The notes under the pieces were generated by a model that worked only from the letters and a program-made list of their open reading frames with translations, was not told the origin of the DNA and did not search any database. 33,595 nucleotides of DNA from an uncultured Verrucomicrobiales bacterium (GTDB lineage: Bacteria > Verrucomicrobiota > Verrucomicrobiia > Verrucomicrobiales > Akkermansiaceae). The stretch covers positions 1 to 33,595 of the forward strand of contig CALFVL010000102.1 of assembly GCA_937928425.1 (NCBI GenBank), written 5' to 3'. Numbering within the stretch: position 1 is the first letter of the stretch; every line of letters begins with the position of its first letter. Below are positions 349 through 19,419 of this stretch, one piece after another. The translations under genes and the position numbers were made by a program.

Positions 349-2691
349 TTATGGTGTGGAGATAGGGATGATGGTCATGGTGTCATTCCCGAAGATGTCC
401 ACGACTTTTACGGCGATTTTATATGAGCCAGCTTTGTCGTAGAGGTGAGGGGAAGAAGTGAGATCGAGCGAGCGGTCCTTACGGGTGCGGAAGGACTGCC
501 ACTCATTCTCGAAGATGTAGTCACCAGTCCATTTCTCCTCGTAGGTGATTAGCTCATCCTCGGCCGGCATGAGGTCAGGTTCATCGCCGGTGTCAGTCGC
601 GAGGCCGATGGGCTCTCGCACGATTTCTTTTTTAGATTCGTAGTCGTAGTCGATGGCCCAGTAGTCGATCCAATCGGACCAATGTTTCGTCAGGACTTCA
701 CGGGAGTGGGTGCCTTCTTTCGTTTTAGTCAGCTTGATGAGTTGCCCCTGTTCGCAGACCACTTGGGAGCCCGCCCCGCGCTTTTTATCGAGCTGGGCGA
801 TGGCGTTTTTAATCGCTCCTTGGGAGTAGTAAACGGAGAAGTCGGTCAGCTCGATCGCGATTTGATTCGGGTCTTTCCGGTCGTAGCGGGGGGTGGCCTC
901 GATGAAGGAGACATCGTGGAAGATCACTTGGTCCCGCTCGATGGCGCGTTTGTCGAAGACTTCTTTAGGAATGTATTTCGGCTGGAGGTCGATGCCTTTT
1001 CCCTTCGCCTCGTCGAGGATGTTAGGAAAGAGGCCCATCTCGAACTCGAAGGCGAGGAGATCACAGCGGGTGAGGCGGCGCTTACGGCACTCCATGAGGA
1101 CTTCTTCTACAAAGAGGCGGTTCACCGGGAGATTGATGGGCCCTACGGAGACGGCGCGGCCTGCTTTTTTTCCTTGGAAGAATTCATCGTCCGCTTTGTG
1201 AGCATAAGGCTCCGCTTTGTAGGCCTTCAGGATGAGGGCGATGAACTCGCGGGTGCGCTGGGCCAGTTTTTCTTGGCGGTCCTTGCCACGGAGGTTCCCA
1301 GGGACCGCGACGTAGTGCCGGCGCTCGTACCGGCCCAGATTCAGAATCTCAAAAGCGCGCCAATCTTTGTCGTCTTTACGGAGGTCGCGCTGCACTTGGA
1401 TCATGCGCTTGCGGGTGGTGTGGATGCCGAATTTCCCGAGGTCGGTGGCGATCCACTTACGACCGAGTTTTTCGGCCACGGCGGCGGTGGTGCCGGAGCC
1501 GCAAAAGAAGTCTGCGACGAGGTCGCCGGGGTTGGAGGAGGCTTTGATGATGCGCTCGAGGAGGGCTTCGGGTTTTTGGGTATTGTAGCCTTGATACTCA
1601 TTTGCCATGGAATTAATCACGTCGACATCGTTCCAAAAATCCGAAATGTAGACTCCTTTTGCTTCAGAGAGGTAGTATTTTAATTCTGGAATCCCTTTCG
1701 AATTCCATACGACCAGATGTTGGTCATCAAGTTTATCTAAGATAGCTGGTTTTTTTAGCCAATGCATACCGTTTTTTCCACGGGTGTTTGGATCAATACC
1801 TTTCCACATTTCTCCTGTTTCACCCGCCGAACGGCCACTTGCCATTAAGGGCACCACTCGATATTGGCCATTTTCATCCTTCCTTGAATAGTGTTTCTTT
1901 GAAGACTCTGAATATTCCCCAAACTGAGGATTGAAGGTGTGATCTCCTGTTTTTGAGAAGAAGAGAATAAAATCCTGACTGTTGCGCCACTGAGTTTTGA
2001 CACCAGCTGCTAATGCCGAGCGTTTCCACGAAATCACATTTTCGAATTCTGGAAAAATATCGCTCATTATTACCCTGAGATTACCGACGAGTCTCCAGTC
2101 GCAGTGGACATAAATACTCCCATCATCGGCCAGTAGATCTCTCATGAGAATGAGCCTTTCATAAATCATGGCGAGGAAGGAATCCGCTCCCTTTCCCCAT
2201 GTGTCGCGGTAGGCGATTTGTTCGAGGATGTTGGCTTCTTTATGGAAGGTTTCGCCACCGATTTCGATGTCCATGGAGAAGTCGGCGCCGACGTCGAAGG
2301 GGGGGTCGATGTAGATGAGCTTGAGGCCGCCGGCTTGCTCGATCTGTTGGCGGAGGGGGCCGTTTTTGAGGGAGGAGAGGATGAGCTTATTATCACCCCA
2401 GATGAGTTTGTTAGTCCAGCCGGAGAGTTGGCGGCCTCGGGAGTCGAAGTCGAAGCCGAGGTCGGCTTTGTCCGTCTTTTCGGAGCGTGGTTCGTCAATG
2501 ACCTCGATGGTTTGGAAGGGGAGGACGGTGTTGGTGACGTGGTTGGTTTTGCCATTCCAGATCAGCTCGACTTGGCGCTTGTCCTCGAAGAGGAGGAAGC
2601 GGTATTTGTCTGGGAGCGGTTTGCGCTCTTGGAGGAGCTGGATGGCGTCGCGCAGCTCGGCGTCGCTGAGGTCTTCGATGGGATGAGGCAT
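349..2691 (-). CDS. Type III-like DNA adenine methyltransferase (Mod subunit)
   Basis: A site-specific DNA methyltransferase of 780 residues that would methylate adenine in the host's recognition sites and protect them from the partner nuclease (4608-7310). The catalytic DPPF motif (residues 129-132, context [11 protein letters not shown]) comes before the SAM-binding motif FFCGSGTT (395-402, context [16 protein letters not shown]). This is the beta-class order of the N6_N4_Mtase family used by Type III Mod proteins. The region between them (about 200-365) is the expected target-recognition domain. It is coded by unusually AT-rich DNA (about 1600-2160) compared with its flanks, suggesting domain exchange. 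The C-terminus (about 740-780, [21 protein letters not shown]) resembles a PKD/Ig-like strand pattern. The ATG at 2691 fits the family N-terminus. A 282-bp gap with repeated motifs lies upstream, so the gene may have its own promoter. Confidence 0.93.
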
Positions 2692-2784
2692 GTTGCAGTG
2701 GTGACTTTTGAGTGAAATTTTCCTGTTGATGGAGTGTGGGTTGATCGTGCGATGTTTTGTGAGTGAGGTGAGTGTTGATTTGCC

Positions 2785-2918
2785 TTTATTGCGTCAGAAG
2801 TGTGTTTTTGGTTTGTTGATGAAGGTGGCTGGAGTGCGTTAAAATAGGGAGGGGAGGGTTTATTGCGTCAGTGAATTGAGTCAGTTATTGCGTCAAAATT
2901 GGACTGCTGACGCAATAA
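2785..2918. promoter_or_regulatory. Cluster of four TTATTGCGTCA motifs upstream of mod (putative operator)
   Basis: The 11-bp word TTATTGCGTCA occurs at 2786-2796, 2860-2870 and 2885-2895 on the plus strand and inverted at 2908-2918. The last two copies form a perfect inverted repeat with 11-bp arms and a 12-nt centre. The cluster lies in the only sizeable gap of the restriction locus, between the end of the ATPase gene (2974) and the start of mod (2691). It is therefore positioned to control mod transcription. The helix-turn-helix tail of the neighbouring AlbA_2 protein is a possible binder, which is inference. A hairpin at transcript level is also possible, but no T-run follows on either strand. 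Confidence 0.6.
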
Positions 2919-2973
2919 GTGTGGTGGTGGATGAGGACAGTTAAGGATGGGTGTTTTTCAATGGGAGGAAGAG

Positions 2974-4608
2974 CTATGGAGTTAAGTCTTGCTTGATTAG
3001 CTGCCACTTTTGTGCTGGGCCTTTTCCGATGAGCTGGACTTTTCCTCTTTCTTGAAGCTCTTTGAGCATGCGGAGGATTGCGCTGCGTGATTGGGCGGGG
3101 AGGACTTGCTCGAGTTCTCTGATGGGTGCGCAGTGGTCACGGCAAGAGGAGAGGTGTTGCAGGAGGAGGGCTTTATTGGTCTCATGATCCAAGCCTTTTC
3201 GGCGGGTGTGGACGCCGGGTTTACCCATTTCTTCGTAAAGAGGGCGGGAGAGGAAGTGGTGTTGACCTTTTCCACGTCCTTGGGATTCGACCGCACCCGC
3301 TTCGAGGAGTTTTGGGATGCGGGATTTCATGGCGTCTGTGAGTGCCTGTTCCCGTGCCAGTGAGTCGAGGGTGAGGAAGTCGATGGTTTGGAAGGAGGAG
3401 AGGGCGTCTTCGCCGAGGCGGTCGATGTAGCGGAGGAAGGCGGGGTTCTGGACGACCCCATTCAGGATCAGCGAAACTTCATGGCCTAAAGATGCGGAAA
3501 AATCAGGCAGGGGCTTTGTTTGGCGAACTGCTTGTTCGATCATCAGATTGACTCCTTGGCCCGAGCGCTCAATGAGGCCGCACTTGTTGAGAGCTTCGGC
3601 GAGTCTACGATTTCTGGGATTTTGTTGATCGGCGATGTTCTCCGGTGTGATGCCCATGGGGAATCCCCCGGGACTGACAATCTCAAGCCTTCTCGAATAC
3701 TGACGAAGAAAGACAGATCCACCAGCGCGATAATCTCGATGACAAATGGCATTCAGAATAGCCTCGCGAATAGAGAACTCGTCAAAGGTGGGGATTTCAT
3801 AACGAAAGAAATCATCTTGATAGCTTTGTTTATCGTTCCGAAGATTAATGGTGGCCCAGAGTTGGTCGTGGAAAAGAAGAAAAGGTTCCCGAAACTCGAT
3901 GCGTGAGGCGGCAGGTCCGGCTGTTTCATTTGAGCGATACTCGAAGATCATCTCAGCTTGGGAGAGATGCCGGTCGATGGAGCGGGGCTTGCCAAGTAGG
4001 ATAAGCGCGGCATAGGTGGGGTGGCCATCGATGAGTAGATCGGCATCGGATAGGCATTGCTGAGGGTCAGCAATGTCGAGTCTAAGGGAAGGATTTTTCT
4101 TCTGCCATCTCTCGATGAAAGCGTGCACGGCCTCTTGTTCCAAATCGGCATAGGACAGTGAGGAAAGGACTTCAGAGGTGAAATCAGGGCCTGTTTCTGA
4201 AAAAATCTGCCTGAGCTCTGCATCAGTTAAATCACAAAGATCATCACCCTCCCGTTTTAAAAAGCGTCCTTTGTGGCTCCACGCTGCTCCAGGGAGTCTG
4301 CTAGGGATATGGATGATGAGAAGCCTCTTATTCTGGTAGGAAAGTTCTTCTAGGGGAATGCGGTAACCGAGCTCACGATGGAGTCCTGCTTCAGTTCGAC
4401 CAGGCTCATCGTAAGCGTGAGTGCCGACTATTTTCCGAGGGCGAGCATCTGAGACTCCGAGGATAATCTTCCCGCCCCCTTCGTTCGCTAGAGCGACGCA
4501 ATAGTTCTTAAGTTTCTCAAAGTCATATCTATTTTTAGCCTCCTTGAACTCGATATTGAGGCCCTCAGGCTGCGCGAGATAGTTTTCGAGTTGTTTGAGA
4601 CTAGTCAT
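2974..4608 (-). CDS. AlbA_2 (Schlafen-like) DNA-binding, ATP-binding protein of the restriction locus
   Basis: A 544-residue COG2865-type protein. The N-terminal AlbA_2 domain (about 10-130) shows LNIEFKEAK (18-25) and ANEGGGKIILGVSD (41-54). A GHKL-like ATPase segment as in the RecG C-terminal/HATPase_c_4 group follows: REAILNAICHRDY (281-293), then NPRNRRLAEALNKCGLIERSGQGVNLM (330-356). The C-terminal 60-70 residues look like a winged helix, with the segment SRSAILRMLKELQERGKVQLIGKG. Such proteins are considered nucleic-acid-binding regulators or accessory factors and often sit between the two subunits of Type III-like systems. Its ATG overlaps the stop of the upstream Res gene by one base (TAATG), indicating translational coupling and shared dosage. 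The coding DNA of roughly 3480-4600 looks more AT-rich than the helix-turn-helix end, so the gene may be mosaic. Its exact role, regulator or effector, cannot be told from sequence. Confidence 0.88.
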   Translation of the reverse strand: MTSLKQLENYLAQPEGLNIEFKEAKNRYDFEKLKNYCVALANEGGGKIILGVSDARPRKIVGTHAYDEPGRTEAGLHRELGYRIPLEELSYQNKRLLIIHIPSRLPGAAWSHKGRFLKREGDDLCDLTDAELRQIFSETGPDFTSEVLSSLSYADLEQEAVHAFIERWQKKNPSLRLDIADPQQCLSDADLLIDGHPTYAALILLGKPRSIDRHLSQAEMIFEYRSNETAGPAASRIEFREPFLLFHDQLWATINLRNDKQSYQDDFFRYEIPTFDEFSIREAILNAICHRDYRAGGSVFLRQYSRRLEIVSPGGFPMGITPENIADQQNPRNRRLAEALNKCGLIERSGQGVNLMIEQAVRQTKPLPDFSASLGHEVSLILNGVVQNPAFLRYIDRLGEDALSSFQTIDFLTLDSLAREQALTDAMKSRIPKLLEAGAVESQGRGKGQHHFLSRPLYEEMGKPGVHTRRKGLDHETNKALLLQHLSSCRDHCAPIRELEQVLPAQSRSAILRMLKELQERGKVQLIGKGPAQKWQLIKQDLTP

Positions 4609-7310
4609 TAGGACTGGAACTTGGTGAAGGATTGAGAGAGGCCGGTGAGGGTCTTAGGGCGGGTGTCTTCCTTTTCGAAGGAGGCCTGATCGACGTAGAT
4701 CAATTGATAATTGTGGTCAGAGTCTGCGGCGCTGGCATCGCGGCACCACTGGGCGAGGCGTTCCATTTTACCTTCGAGGGCGCGTTCTTCTCCGCCCTTG
4801 GTCTCGATGATGTAGAGGGTGCCATCGCTGTGGCGGGCGAAGAAATCGGGGATGTAGTTAGAGAGTTCACCATCCGGTTTGACGTAGTCGAGCGAGAATC
4901 CGCAGGCGAGAAAGTTCTTGGCGAAGGTGGTGACGTCGGGGCAGTCATCGAGCCACTGGGCGAAGGTGAGCTCGAAGCCAGAGTCTCCGACGATTTTATT
5001 AAAGAGGGACTTCTTGGGAAGGTGGAAGTCGCTGCGGGTGGAGAGAAAGGGGCGGGTCTCGCGGAGCTTAAGATGGGACTCGATGCGGGAGCTTCCGGAT
5101 TTTTGAATGGTGAGTGAATTGAGCGCGGATTTGAAGCTATCGAAGATGAGTTTGGAAGCTTGAGGGGTGGCGAGGTTACGCAGGGTGTTGGGTGCTTCGA
5201 GGTCGACGGGCTCTTCAAAAAGGTGATCACGCATGAAGTCGCGGATGGCGGGGTAGAGGTGCTCATAGCCACCCACGAGGCGGAGTTCTTTAAGGAGTGT
5301 CCGGGCAAAGTAGGCGACGACGGAGCGGTAGTCGGCGGGGCCAGAACCGTCTAGGACGGTGGTGTGGTCGTGTTCGCCATCGAGGAGGGTTTTGAAGATG
5401 ATTTCCCGTGAATCGGAGAGGTCGAAGGTTTCGAGAGGAAGTTTTTTGTGCTGAATCGTTGCTGGATCGAGGTCGGCGAGGTTTTTAAAATCACGGTGGT
5501 AGCGGCGGGTAAGGCGGGGGATCTGGATGTCGAGCTGGTCGAGGTCCTTCTCTTCGTTCTCTTCGTCAATTTCGATGAGAGTTTTGTCCTTTACCCCTGA
5601 GCTGGGGCCCATGGATTTATATTCGAACTCGACGCCTTCGCGCTGGATGTCTTCGACAAATTCCATGAAGGCAGGGGTGCCGAGAACAGAGACTTTTTCG
5701 GGGGTCTCTGAGCCAAAATACATGCGGCGGAGCCCACGGCCCAGAGTCTGTTCAGGAAGGATATTTGATTTCGAGGAGTAGGCGCGTAGACCGACGATGG
5801 TGGTGACGTTTTTGACATCCCAGCCTTCTTTAAGCATGAGGACGGAGACGATGGCTTTGTAGGGGGACTTCCAAGAGTCGATGTCGTTTGAGGCAGCGCG
5901 AAGGGCTTGGAGTTCTTCGAGTTTTGCTTTTGATTGGGCCTCTGAAATGTCGCCTTTGGTGTTGGTGTGGATGACTAGGACGGCTCCATCGAGTTCTGGG
6001 CAGATTTTTTCGAGGTGTGAGCCGACGTCGTCACAGTTCTTGGTGTCATCCACCATGACGAAGAGGACGGCTTTTTTTCCAAGCGCTTTGTGCTCATCGT
6101 AGGAGGAGCGCCATTCTTCGACGCCGAGGTGGAGGTAGTCGTCGTATTTTTCGTGAAAGAGGGCAGATTTTTTTTCTTCGAGCTGGGCACGTGAGGCGGC
6201 GTCTGGGAGGACGGGGTGTTTGACGACATTCTGATGGATGGCCTCGACGAGGGGGTAGTCGGAAACGGTTTGGACGAAAATCGAGCCGTTGTTGTGTTTT
6301 GGGGTGGCGGTGACGTCGAGCTGGAGGGCGAGGGAGCCTTCTTTTTGGAGGAGGCGGTGGTGGATGTCTTGGATGGATTTAAACCAAGCGAGTTTTGAGT
6401 CGTGGATGTGGTGAGCTTCGTCGTTAAGGATGATGAGTTCGTCAATCTCGCGGAGGATTTCGCCGAGGTCGGTCTTGTTGTCGTTTGTTTTACCAGAGGG
6501 TTTGGGGCCGAAGGGGTGGAGGAAGTAATCGAGGGTGTTTTCGTCATCGAGTGAGGGCTCGATGTCCTCATTCCAATAGACGCGGTGGATATTAGTGAGG
6601 AAAAAGTTGCCGGTGGGTTGGGTGATGCGGACGTCGTCCTGAATGTGGAGGGTGAGTTGGAAGTCATCGTGCCAGTCTTGACCTTCGTATCCGGAGGGCG
6701 GGAGGATGGGGTCTTGGAAAAAGATTCGTAGGGAGTCGAAGTCAGCTCGGAGGCGGTCGAGGACGATGATGTTAGGAGCGATGAGGAGGAAGTTGCGAGC
6801 GAGTGGGGAATCTGCTTCGTAGAGTTTGTGGAAGTAGGCCCAGGCGATGAGGAGGGAGAGGACCTTTGTTTTACCGCATCCCGTGGCGAGTTTAAGAACG
6901 TAGCGGGGCCATTCTTCATCGAACATTCCGCTGGCTACGTTTCCGGTGGCGTCAAATCGCATGAGTTCGAATTTGTCACGGGCTTCTTGGACTTCGTAGA
7001 GCCAGATGGCTGTCTCGACTGCTTCTTGCTGGGCAAAGTAGTATTGAAAGGGGCTAGAGGAGCCGTCTGGCTGTTCGATGAGGTGGGTGCTGTGAAACCA
7101 GTGATGGAGAAGGGCGCGGGAGGTAGGAGATGCGCCTTGATATTTATTGTTGCGCCACTGAGAGACTTTTCGGCGAATGGAATCGACGAGAGGAGGGAGA
7201 AGTTTTTCGGCACCACCGGAATCTCGGATGGCATCGTCACCGGGGAACCATCGGTGCTCGGGATCGAGGATCTGGTGAGGGGATGGTGGGAAAAGTGAGT
7301 GCAATGCCAT
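4608..7310 (-). CDS. Type III-like restriction enzyme, DEAD/DEAH helicase-nuclease (Res subunit)
   Basis: An SF2 helicase with a nuclease end, expected to translocate on DNA using ATP and cut unmodified sites. Numbering from the ATG at 7310 (900 residues): Walker A ATGCGKT at about 142-148, Walker B DEAH at 297-300, motif VI QTLGRGLRRM in the second RecA lobe, and a C-terminal PD-(D/E)xK signature (PDFF, D822; then IIETKGG, E836 and K838). The frame stays open to a TTG at 7409, but that start would run into the divergent aquaporin gene. The segment beginning MALHSLFPPSPHQ, followed by LPPLVDSIRRKVSQW, looks like the usual family N-terminus, so I take the ATG at 7310. An AGAGGA lies 13 nt upstream of it. 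It is the first gene of the res-AlbA_2-mod set, coupled to the next gene by TAATG. No frameshift or missing catalytic residue is seen. Confidence 0.9.
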   Translation of the reverse strand: MALHSLFPPSPHQILDPEHRWFPGDDAIRDSGGAEKLLPPLVDSIRRKVSQWRNNKYQGASPTSRALLHHWFHSTHLIEQPDGSSSPFQYYFAQQEAVETAIWLYEVQEARDKFELMRFDATGNVASGMFDEEWPRYVLKLATGCGKTKVLSLLIAWAYFHKLYEADSPLARNFLLIAPNIIVLDRLRADFDSLRIFFQDPILPPSGYEGQDWHDDFQLTLHIQDDVRITQPTGNFFLTNIHRVYWNEDIEPSLDDENTLDYFLHPFGPKPSGKTNDNKTDLGEILREIDELIILNDEAHHIHDSKLAWFKSIQDIHHRLLQKEGSLALQLDVTATPKHNNGSIFVQTVSDYPLVEAIHQNVVKHPVLPDAASRAQLEEKKSALFHEKYDDYLHLGVEEWRSSYDEHKALGKKAVLFVMVDDTKNCDDVGSHLEKICPELDGAVLVIHTNTKGDISEAQSKAKLEELQALRAASNDIDSWKSPYKAIVSVLMLKEGWDVKNVTTIVGLRAYSSKSNILPEQTLGRGLRRMYFGSETPEKVSVLGTPAFMEFVEDIQREGVEFEYKSMGPSSGVKDKTLIEIDEENEEKDLDQLDIQIPRLTRRYHRDFKNLADLDPATIQHKKLPLETFDLSDSREIIFKTLLDGEHDHTTVLDGSGPADYRSVVAYFARTLLKELRLVGGYEHLYPAIRDFMRDHLFEEPVDLEAPNTLRNLATPQASKLIFDSFKSALNSLTIQKSGSSRIESHLKLRETRPFLSTRSDFHLPKKSLFNKIVGDSGFELTFAQWLDDCPDVTTFAKNFLACGFSLDYVKPDGELSNYIPDFFARHSDGTLYIIETKGGEERALEGKMERLAQWCRDASAADSDHNYQLIYVDQASFEKEDTRPKTLTGLSQSFTKFQS

Positions 7311-7388
7311 TGACGAGATTGTGTCCTCTGAGCAAGAGAAGTGAAGGTTGAAGTCGGTAGACTTTGTGGGTGAGATTTCATTGGCAAG

Positions 7389-8210
7389 ATGGATCAGTCG
7401 GGGCTTCAATGTGGCGTGAAGTTGCCGAGCTGGGTGATGGGAGAATTTCTGGGGACCTTTTTATTGGTCTTGATCGGCTGTGGGAGTGTGTGTGTTGCCG
7501 TAGTGACTGAGGTGGACTTAACCCTAGTGGAAATTGCGGGGATCTGGGGGAGCGGGATCGCCTTGGCGATTTATGGGACGAGGGCGATGAGTGGAGCGCA
7601 CTTGAACCCAGCAGTCACGCTCGCTTTGGCCGTATTTCATGATTTTAAGAAGGAGCGGGTGCTCGGGTATTTTGCAAGTCAGGTGATGGGAGCCTTCTGT
7701 GCTGCGATGGTGTTGCATGGTGTTTTTGGAGGAGTGATTCAGGAGTTCGAAAAGGAGCAGGGAATTCAGCGGGGGGAGTCAGGGAGCGAGGCCTCGGCAA
7801 TGGTTTATGGCGAATATTTCCCGAATCCCGAGGGGAACCCACTCGATGAAGCTGAAAAAGAATCCATGCATCTGTGGCAGGCTTTTCTGGTAGAAGCTGG
7901 AGGGACAGCTGTCTTGGTGTGCGTCATTTTTGCGTTGATCCGCTGCAAGAGACGCTGGTTGAACTATGCCTTGAGCCCTCTCTTGATCGGTGGAACAGTC
8001 ATGTTGCTCATCATCTTACTCGCCCCCATGACTCAGGGAGGATTTAATCCGGCGCGGGATTTTGCTCCGCGAGTTTTTTCAGCGTGGGCCGGTTGGGGAG
8101 AAGTGCCATTTACTACGAATGGGCAAGGTTGGTGGCTGGTCTACATTCTGGGACCTTTTGCGGGAGCTCTCGTCGGGGCCTTGGGGATGAAGTTTTGGAA
8201 AGCCCCTTAG
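7389..8210 (+). CDS. Aquaporin / glycerol facilitator (MIP family)
   Basis: A 273-residue inner-membrane channel with six hydrophobic spans and two NPA half-helices: GAHLNPAVT (N73-A75) and GGFNPARDFAPR (N220-A222). The Asp right after the second NPAR (D224) is the usual mark of glycerol-conducting aquaglyceroporins as opposed to strict water channels, so glycerol or a small polyol is a likely cargo. The loop after the third span (about 115-158) is long and acidic (GESGSEASAMVYGEYFPNPEGNPLDEAEKE). The gene is divergent from the restriction operon with only 78 bp between starts, so promoters must be compact. The ATG at 7389 is taken because the first span begins about 15 residues later. No glpK or glpD is next to it, so the link to glycerol metabolism rests on the protein alone. 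Confidence 0.92.
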   Translation: MDQSGLQCGVKLPSWVMGEFLGTFLLVLIGCGSVCVAVVTEVDLTLVEIAGIWGSGIALAIYGTRAMSGAHLNPAVTLALAVFHDFKKERVLGYFASQVMGAFCAAMVLHGVFGGVIQEFEKEQGIQRGESGSEASAMVYGEYFPNPEGNPLDEAEKESMHLWQAFLVEAGGTAVLVCVIFALIRCKRRWLNYALSPLLIGGTVMLLIILLAPMTQGGFNPARDFAPRVFSAWAGWGEVPFTTNGQGWWLVYILGPFAGALVGALGMKFWKAP

Positions 8211-16374: not shown

Positions 16375-16403
16375 TTGACCGCTTCTATTTCTAGTTTTAT
16401 CTT
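16375..16403 (+). promoter_or_regulatory. Sigma-70-like promoter for the thioredoxin-like gene
   Basis: TTGACC (16375-16380) and TATCTT (16398-16403) are separated by exactly 17 bp. Transcription would start about 16410, at or next to the ATG pair at 16409 and 16412, so the mRNA would be leaderless or nearly so. It lies 33 bp after the sulfatase stop, which makes the small gene a separate unit. Prediction from consensus only. Confidence 0.55.
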
Positions 16404-16408
16404 CTAGG

Positions 16409-16933
16409 ATGATGAAACTCCTTTTCGCTATTTTTCTCCTCGCGCTGCCAGCCTATGGCGATCGGAATCGCCAAGCAGCTCAAGGGAGTGTTGATGACAT
16501 CCGCTGGGGCCGTCACTGGGCTGGCCCTGTCATTCAGGGCTCTTCTGAATTAAAAGGAAAAGTCACCTTGCTCGTCATCTGGGGGGGATGAATCGGCTGT
16601 CAGCAGCTCACGGAGGGCATGGTCAGTTTGGCCAAGTCGCTTCAGGATCAACCCTTCCAACTCATCGCCTCCTACTGCCAGCGTGGAACTAAGGAAAGTG
16701 CCCTCTCACTGCTCACTCGGAAGGGCTGGAGTGAGGAACTTAAAAACACCTCAGTCATGTACCAGAGTGCCTTTCCTAAGGTTCCCATTAAGTATGTTCC
16801 GTACTGCCTCGTCTTTGATCATAACGGAAAACTACGCTACCATCACATGGCTGGTCCCTATCATGGCGGAAATGGCAATACCTACCAAAGCCGCGTAAAA
16901 GCCCTTTTAAAGGAAGTTCCCAAAGTGGAATAA
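16409..16933 (+). CDS. Exported thioredoxin-like protein with in-frame UGA (candidate selenoprotein, UxxC)
   Basis: One frame of 174 codons plus stop, interrupted only by TGA at 16589-16591 (codon 61). The part before it is a signal peptide (MMKLLFAIFLLALPAYG) and the start of a thioredoxin-like domain (SSELKGKVTLLVIWGG, 45-60). The part after continues in the same frame: IGC (62-64), a helix, FQLIASYCQRGTKESA, and KYVPYCLVFDHNGKLRYHHMAGPY with the cis-Pro-like VPYCLVF element. If UGA is read as selenocysteine, the motif is U61-I-G-C64, where a redox-active CxxC is expected. A hairpin can be drawn 18 nt downstream (16597-16626). Alternatives are a nonsense mutation in a CxxC gene or a sequencing error. 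The 7-G run before the TGA cannot explain it, because both sides share one frame. TGA is a normal stop elsewhere (GntP gene), so it is not a Trp codon. selA, selB, selC and selD are not in this window. Confidence 0.65.
16597..16626 (+). other. Possible bacterial SECIS-like hairpin after the UGA
   Basis: The RNA can pair GCUC (16606-16609) with GGGC (16615-16618) around the loop ACGGA, and CUG (16597-16599) with CAG (16624-16626), with an internal loop between. The apical loop begins 18 nt after the UGA, inside the 16-37 nt range described for bacterial SECIS elements. The preferred G among the first two loop bases is not clearly met. Competing pairings exist (GGCUG/CAGCU at 16595-16608). Weak support; drawn by eye. 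Confidence 0.3.

Positions 16934-17040: not shown

Positions 17041-19419
<2,379 letters not shown>

Follow-up and report, generated by a model that had tools for sequence, protein, structure and literature searches.

A recoded reading frame and its parts

The window, i.e. the whole stretch of 33,595 nucleotides that was analysed, belongs to a 2.57 Mb marine verrucomicrobial genome (G000) that is 97% complete. On its forward strand, positions 16409-16933 form a reading frame that is open throughout except for a TGA at 16589-16591. Translated with TGA as U, the frame encodes a thioredoxin-fold protein of 174 residues with a TAA stop at 16931-16933, which reads MMKLLFAIFLLALPAYGDRN...KVTLLVIWGG-U-IGCQQL...KYVPYCLVFDHNGKLR...VPKVE-stop (Table 1). 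Its N-terminus, MMKLLFAIFLLALPAYG, is signal-peptide-like and is followed by VTLLVIWGG-U61-I-G-C64 and, later, by a VPYCLVF motif. A preliminary description of this DNA, made from the letters alone, had proposed this single frame with the same start, UGA and motifs, and all of them were seen on translation; its count of 114 codons after the UGA holds if the stop is included, with 113 residues lying C-terminal of the selenocysteine (Sec).

Table 1. Features of the UGA-containing gene, in window coordinates
Feature	Position	Strand	Evidence
Selenoprotein gene, 174 residues + TAA, UGA as Sec61	16409..16933	+	Frame open under TGA=U; 10 homologues with UGA in the same column; purifying selection
Signal-peptide-like N-terminus MMKLLFAIFLLALPAYG, likely cleavage after G17 (by eye)	16409..16459	+	N-terminal hydrophobic stretch in 11/11 family members
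Redox motif U61-I-G-C64; UGA Sec codon 16589-16591	16589..16600	+	TGA in 11/11 close family genes, Cys64 invariant; aligned with CxxC of solved thioredoxin-fold proteins
V130-P131, expected cis-proline position of the thioredoxin fold	16796..16801	+	Invariant in 11/11 proteins; role inferred from fold family
SECIS hairpin UGGUC-AGUUU-GGCCA, loop start 33 nt past UGA	16620..16634	+	Stem and (A/G)GU(U/C)U loop in 11/11 genes; synonymous-constraint peak; fits bSECIS model

The standard list of open reading frames holds only a 104-residue tail starting at an internal ATG (16619), and the gene is therefore missed by ordinary annotation; a truncated gene or a 104-residue fragment in its place keeps the whole family hidden in databases. 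The 17-bp-spaced promoter reported earlier does exist (TTGACC-17-TATCTT at 16375-16403), but shuffled sequence averages 0.6 such sites and we dropped it as evidence. No match was found in the window to Rfam at gathering scores, nor to the gene among phage records. The gene is recoded and intact, not broken by a stop, and encodes a redox protein for which Sec insertion and export are predicted.

Conservation and decoding of the UGA

To find homologues, we searched 97 relatives at the protein level, scanned GTDB contigs and ran profiles against two overlapping sets of genomes, 260 from the family and 388 from the phylum. The close family comprises 11 genes in nine genomes, including the gene of the window, to whose protein the ten homologues are 40-67% identical. 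All 11 genes have TGA in one and the same alignment column, a degree of conservation far beyond chance that makes a base-calling error untenable in genes so diverged. The weakest family member, a fragment at a contig end, scores 228 bits and the next match below it 67 bits, indicating that there is no close Cys form among the 260 and 388 genomes covered by the profile searches. Downstream of the UGA, differences from the window gene amount to 0.15-0.38 per nonsynonymous site and 0.69-0.88, near saturation, per synonymous site. Such low nonsynonymous divergence against near-saturated synonymous divergence implies that translation past the UGA is maintained, and purifying selection acts on both sides of it, bearing out the earlier impression that the codons beyond the UGA are conserved. 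The homologue comparison suggested in the preliminary description thus gave UGA at position 61 in every close homologue and UGA or Cys in distant relatives.

Some members of the close family are extended. An SHD1-like tail is present in three (L019, L024, L026), and one G001 homologue (L085 619-2826) is extended in frame by leishmanolysin-like (Peptidase_M8) and TraB/PrgY/GumN domains; its contig holds a second family copy some 3 kb further downstream.

Within conserved-residue columns, codon choice is most constrained at codons 8 to 14 past the UGA (permutation p 0.004; GTC in 11/11, AGT in 7/7 and GCC in 11/11 genes), which is the expected site of an RNA signal inside the coding sequence. 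Indeed, every close family gene carries the segment UGGUC-(A/G)GU(U/C)U-GGCCA with its loop starting 33 nt past the UGA, and in four of the 11 the loop is GGUCU, the pentaloop of the genome's own selD at nearly equal distance. Five distant UGA-containing relatives have other stems (UGCCAC/GUGGCA, UGCCGC/GCGGCA, CCAUCU/AGAUGG and others) with xGUxx pentaloops. All 17 of the 17 listed genes fit the pattern. Among control codons it turned up at 6 of 3259 within these genes and at 12 of 4771 within other genes of the window, a rate of about 0.2%. These figures are to be read in the light of the pattern having been defined after the folds were seen and of the 11 close genes not being independent.

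The published bSECIS model specifies a loop of 3-9 nt, a stem of 4-16 bp, a spacing of 16-37 nt and an energy of at most -7.5 kcal/mol, with a G within the first two nucleotides of the loop and, in most cases, G or U after it (PMC13188914). The window hairpin conforms to it, with 33 nt spacing, a 5-bp stem, an AGUUU loop and -8.4 kcal/mol when flanking pairs are included (-5.1 kcal/mol for the 15-nt hairpin alone), and it lies in the stretch where a SECIS search had been proposed. As a whole, the region does not fold with unusual energy (z -0.18 and -1.19), and it is the conservation of the sequence, its position and the constraint on its codons that make the case for a SECIS element; the stem hardly varies in the close family, so that there is no covariation within it.

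All four components of the bacterial Sec machinery that were searched for, as the preliminary description had recommended, were found in the genome: selA (487 bits), selB (above the curated cut-off, with its N-terminus on a second contig end), selD (375 bits) and tRNA-Sec (54 bits; called tRNA-SeC with anticodon tca by ARAGORN). The selD gene itself has an in-frame UGA, in MASCGGUASKLG, a known selenoprotein form; at L045 1399-2451 (-), a strong hairpin with a GGUCU loop lies downstream of this UGA. At least one Sec-machinery gene scores above cut-off in each of the nine close-family genomes; G001, whose assembly is 86% complete, has selB and lacks selA and tRNA-Sec. Neither an absence of Sec machinery nor homologues with neither Cys nor UGA, the outcomes named beforehand as telling against a selenoprotein, was seen.

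A DsbD is also encoded in the genome (L088 481-2691; G000:C88:13046-15253); of its 736 residues, number 647 corresponds to an in-frame UGA, in the sequence W-U-A-T-C of the C-terminal thioredoxin domain (DYTADWUATC). Directly downstream of DsbD come a gene that was judged by eye to be IF-1-like and then selB. One internal UGA in DsbD was found in most genomes of the genus; in G051, which holds a family member, the best DsbD match is without it. The DsbD UGA does not fit the strict hairpin pattern and is followed by a 6-bp hairpin whose loop, CGGGU, agrees with the published rule for loops.

A recent nonsense mutation or a sequencing error, leaving a pseudogene with an ancestral Cys at position 61, had been regarded as the main alternative. 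It would take a single base change from TGT or TGC to TGA, and Cys does occur at the Sec position in distant relatives, but a UGA in the same column of 11/11 genes from nine genomes already refutes it, and the purifying selection on downstream codons, the SECIS hairpin with its synonymous constraint and the full Sec machinery argue in the same direction, so that we consider it vanishingly improbable. The UGA might instead stand for another amino acid, such as the Trp of reassigned codes, or be passed by simple read-through, given that the frame is open whatever the UGA encodes. This is very improbable: UGA is an ordinary stop in three other genes of the window, indicating that the code has not been reassigned, the genome has tRNA-Sec and SelB, the distant relatives have Cys and not Trp in this column, and the genome's other UGA-containing genes are the known selenoproteins SelD and DsbD. 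With mutation, sequencing error and code reassignment rejected on the conserved UGA column and on the use of UGA as a stop elsewhere in the window, the gene product is, from its sequence, almost certainly a selenoprotein with a thioredoxin-like redox role.

Placement among thioredoxin-fold proteins

No Pfam or NCBIfam match of the close family (Thioredoxin_8, Redoxin, AhpC-TSA, TlpA) reaches its cut-off; since the TlpA, ResA, Redoxin and AhpC-TSA matches do not reach the curated values, we file the protein as related to these named families and not as a member of them. A profile of the 11 proteins run against PDB sequences matched a Redoxin domain protein best (28db, 1.9e-8), along with YkuV (2b5x, 8.6e-8), SOQ1 (7djj, 9.2e-8), DipZ (2hyx, 1.1e-5) and the solved structure 3kcm. 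In these alignments the Sec takes the place of the first Cys in the CxxC motif of solved thioredoxin-fold proteins, in agreement with the earlier placement of the UGA at the first residue of a CxxC-type motif. The active site of the close family reads W-G-G/S-U-x-G-C, with an invariant resolving Cys. An AlphaFold model built on three sequences was too poor for use (mean pLDDT 43).

Compared with the CxxC reductases of the TlpA, ResA, YkuV and redoxin-domain type, which are exported or soluble, the family shares the Trp-Gly before and the Cys after the redox residue as well as the cis-Pro position, but has Sec in place of Cys and Gly in place of Pro before the resolving Cys. The spacing from Trp to the redox residue is one residue shorter in the close family than in relatives of the WGVNCPPC type (WGxxCxPC). 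NCBIfam NF041054 (WAxxUGC_long) likewise describes a ResA-like selenoprotein with a thioredoxin fold, but only one of the 11 members matches it (E 0.0054; cut-off 300 bits), its motif is UGC instead of UxxC and the model is much longer.

Distant verrucomicrobial redoxin-like relatives occur both with Sec (L027, L030, L041, L059 and L062, all five with SECIS hairpins) and with Cys aligned at the Sec (L028, L029, L034, L043 and others). They share the thioredoxin-like domain and the N-terminal hydrophobic stretch, and several also have an SHD1-like tail, but they are about 25-30% identical and have an active site that is one residue longer (WGxxU/CxPC). In a tree of 45 domains the 11 Sec genes form one clade with full support, and overall the tree requires a minimum of four switches between Sec and Cys. 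The five distant Sec forms constitute a second, distinct redoxin-like group (WGxxUxPC) that is interspersed with Cys forms on the tree and has a weak SHD1-like C-terminal domain.

UxxC proteins of related kinds have been described before. A 2026 inventory of prokaryotic selenoproteomes lists UxxC TlpA-like or thiol-disulfide isomerase-like proteins (cd02966) and a 'Redoxin family protein' (PF08534) (PMC13188914), and several Trx-like and Prx-like UxxC families were reported from marine metagenomes (PMC2398784). In the inventory, the 'Redoxin family protein' is entered with the sequence HEU0032618.1 and the 'thiol-disulfide isomerase-like protein' with MGB1650493.1. The inventory proteins resemble ours in the thioredoxin-like fold, in Sec as the first residue of UxxC, and in having been found by genomics with a predicted function; judged by their descriptions, they are set apart by the WGGUxGC motif and the lack of any Pfam or NCBIfam match above cut-off in our family. 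We found no listing of the WGGUxGC motif in the inventory, the comparison being with its descriptions and not with its representative sequences, and a literature search on selenoproteins in Roseibacillus or Verrucomicrobiota returned nothing relevant. With UxxC TlpA-like, thiol-disulfide isomerase-like and redoxin proteins already listed and the inventory representatives outside the comparison, the claim of a new selenoprotein stands at the subfamily level only: within the Sec-containing TlpA/redoxin-like proteins, the close family constitutes a new subfamily, thioredoxin-like and Sec-only, of Roseibacillus-type Verrucomicrobiota.

Genomic surroundings and likely role

The sulfatases and KatG noted near the gene are both real, but no gene consistently adjoins the close-family genes across genomes; the sulfatases are not shared, and only KatG recurs, in one other species: the window gene and its G004 homologue (L081) both have katG as their convergent neighbour, and in G004 a PerR/Fur-like gene lies directly upstream of katG. 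In a third genome (L083), a Fur-family gene is located about 590 bp from the family gene. An oxidative-stress repair setting is possible, solely by virtue of these katG and Fur-family neighbours.

The earlier proposal of a periplasmic thiol oxidoreductase was supported and could be narrowed, with export predicted, to a TlpA/ResA/redoxin-like thiol reductase, which is the best-supported role. We propose that SelB, together with Sec-tRNA, is brought in by the SECIS hairpin 33 nt downstream, whereupon the ribosome would read the UGA at 16589 as selenocysteine. The product would be exported and carry a thioredoxin-like domain of the TlpA/ResA/redoxin type with U61-x-G-C64 as redox centre. In a periplasmic substrate, Sec61 would then attack a disulfide or a comparable oxidised group; the intermediate would be resolved by Cys64, as in related proteins. 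By analogy, the resulting Se-S bond would most likely be re-reduced by a membrane reductase, perhaps the DsbD that also contains a UGA in this genome; a disulfide reductase with DsbD as its partner is a reading that we favour with moderate confidence.

The main functional rival is that the selenoprotein is instead a peroxidase, peroxiredoxin-like and with Sec as the peroxidatic residue. The weak Redoxin and AhpC-TSA matches, the convergent katG in the window and in G004 with the PerR/Fur-like gene beside the latter, and the suitability of Sec for peroxide chemistry are in keeping with this. However, the Sec corresponds to the leading Cys in the CxxC motif of TlpA/ResA/YkuV-type reductases and is followed by an invariant resolving Cys, katG does not adjoin the gene in most genomes, and the TxxC or TxxU site typical of peroxiredoxins was not found, the site being W-G-G-U-I-G-C and the AhpC-TSA match below cut-off. 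A peroxidase is thus rather unlikely.

More tentatively, the family could be an obligately Sec-using branch with a remodelled, one-residue-shorter WGGUxGC site that, together with the Sec-containing DsbD encoded beside selB, would form an envelope relay with selenium in both the membrane donor and the soluble acceptor; we hold this to be a speculative reading, less probable than its opposite. Most of the genus, this genome included, has a Sec-containing DsbD, so that the use of selenium in envelope redox chemistry is directly testable there.

Two further observations concern other genes of these regions. The KatG of the window (17041-19398, -) has an N-terminal extension resembling a signal peptide, and the katG of G004 (L081 3639-5837) begins without one. 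At 349-7409 (-), a 544-aa gene that matches defence models only weakly lies between the methyltransferase and the restriction helicase of a Type III restriction-modification pair identified with PADLOC models.
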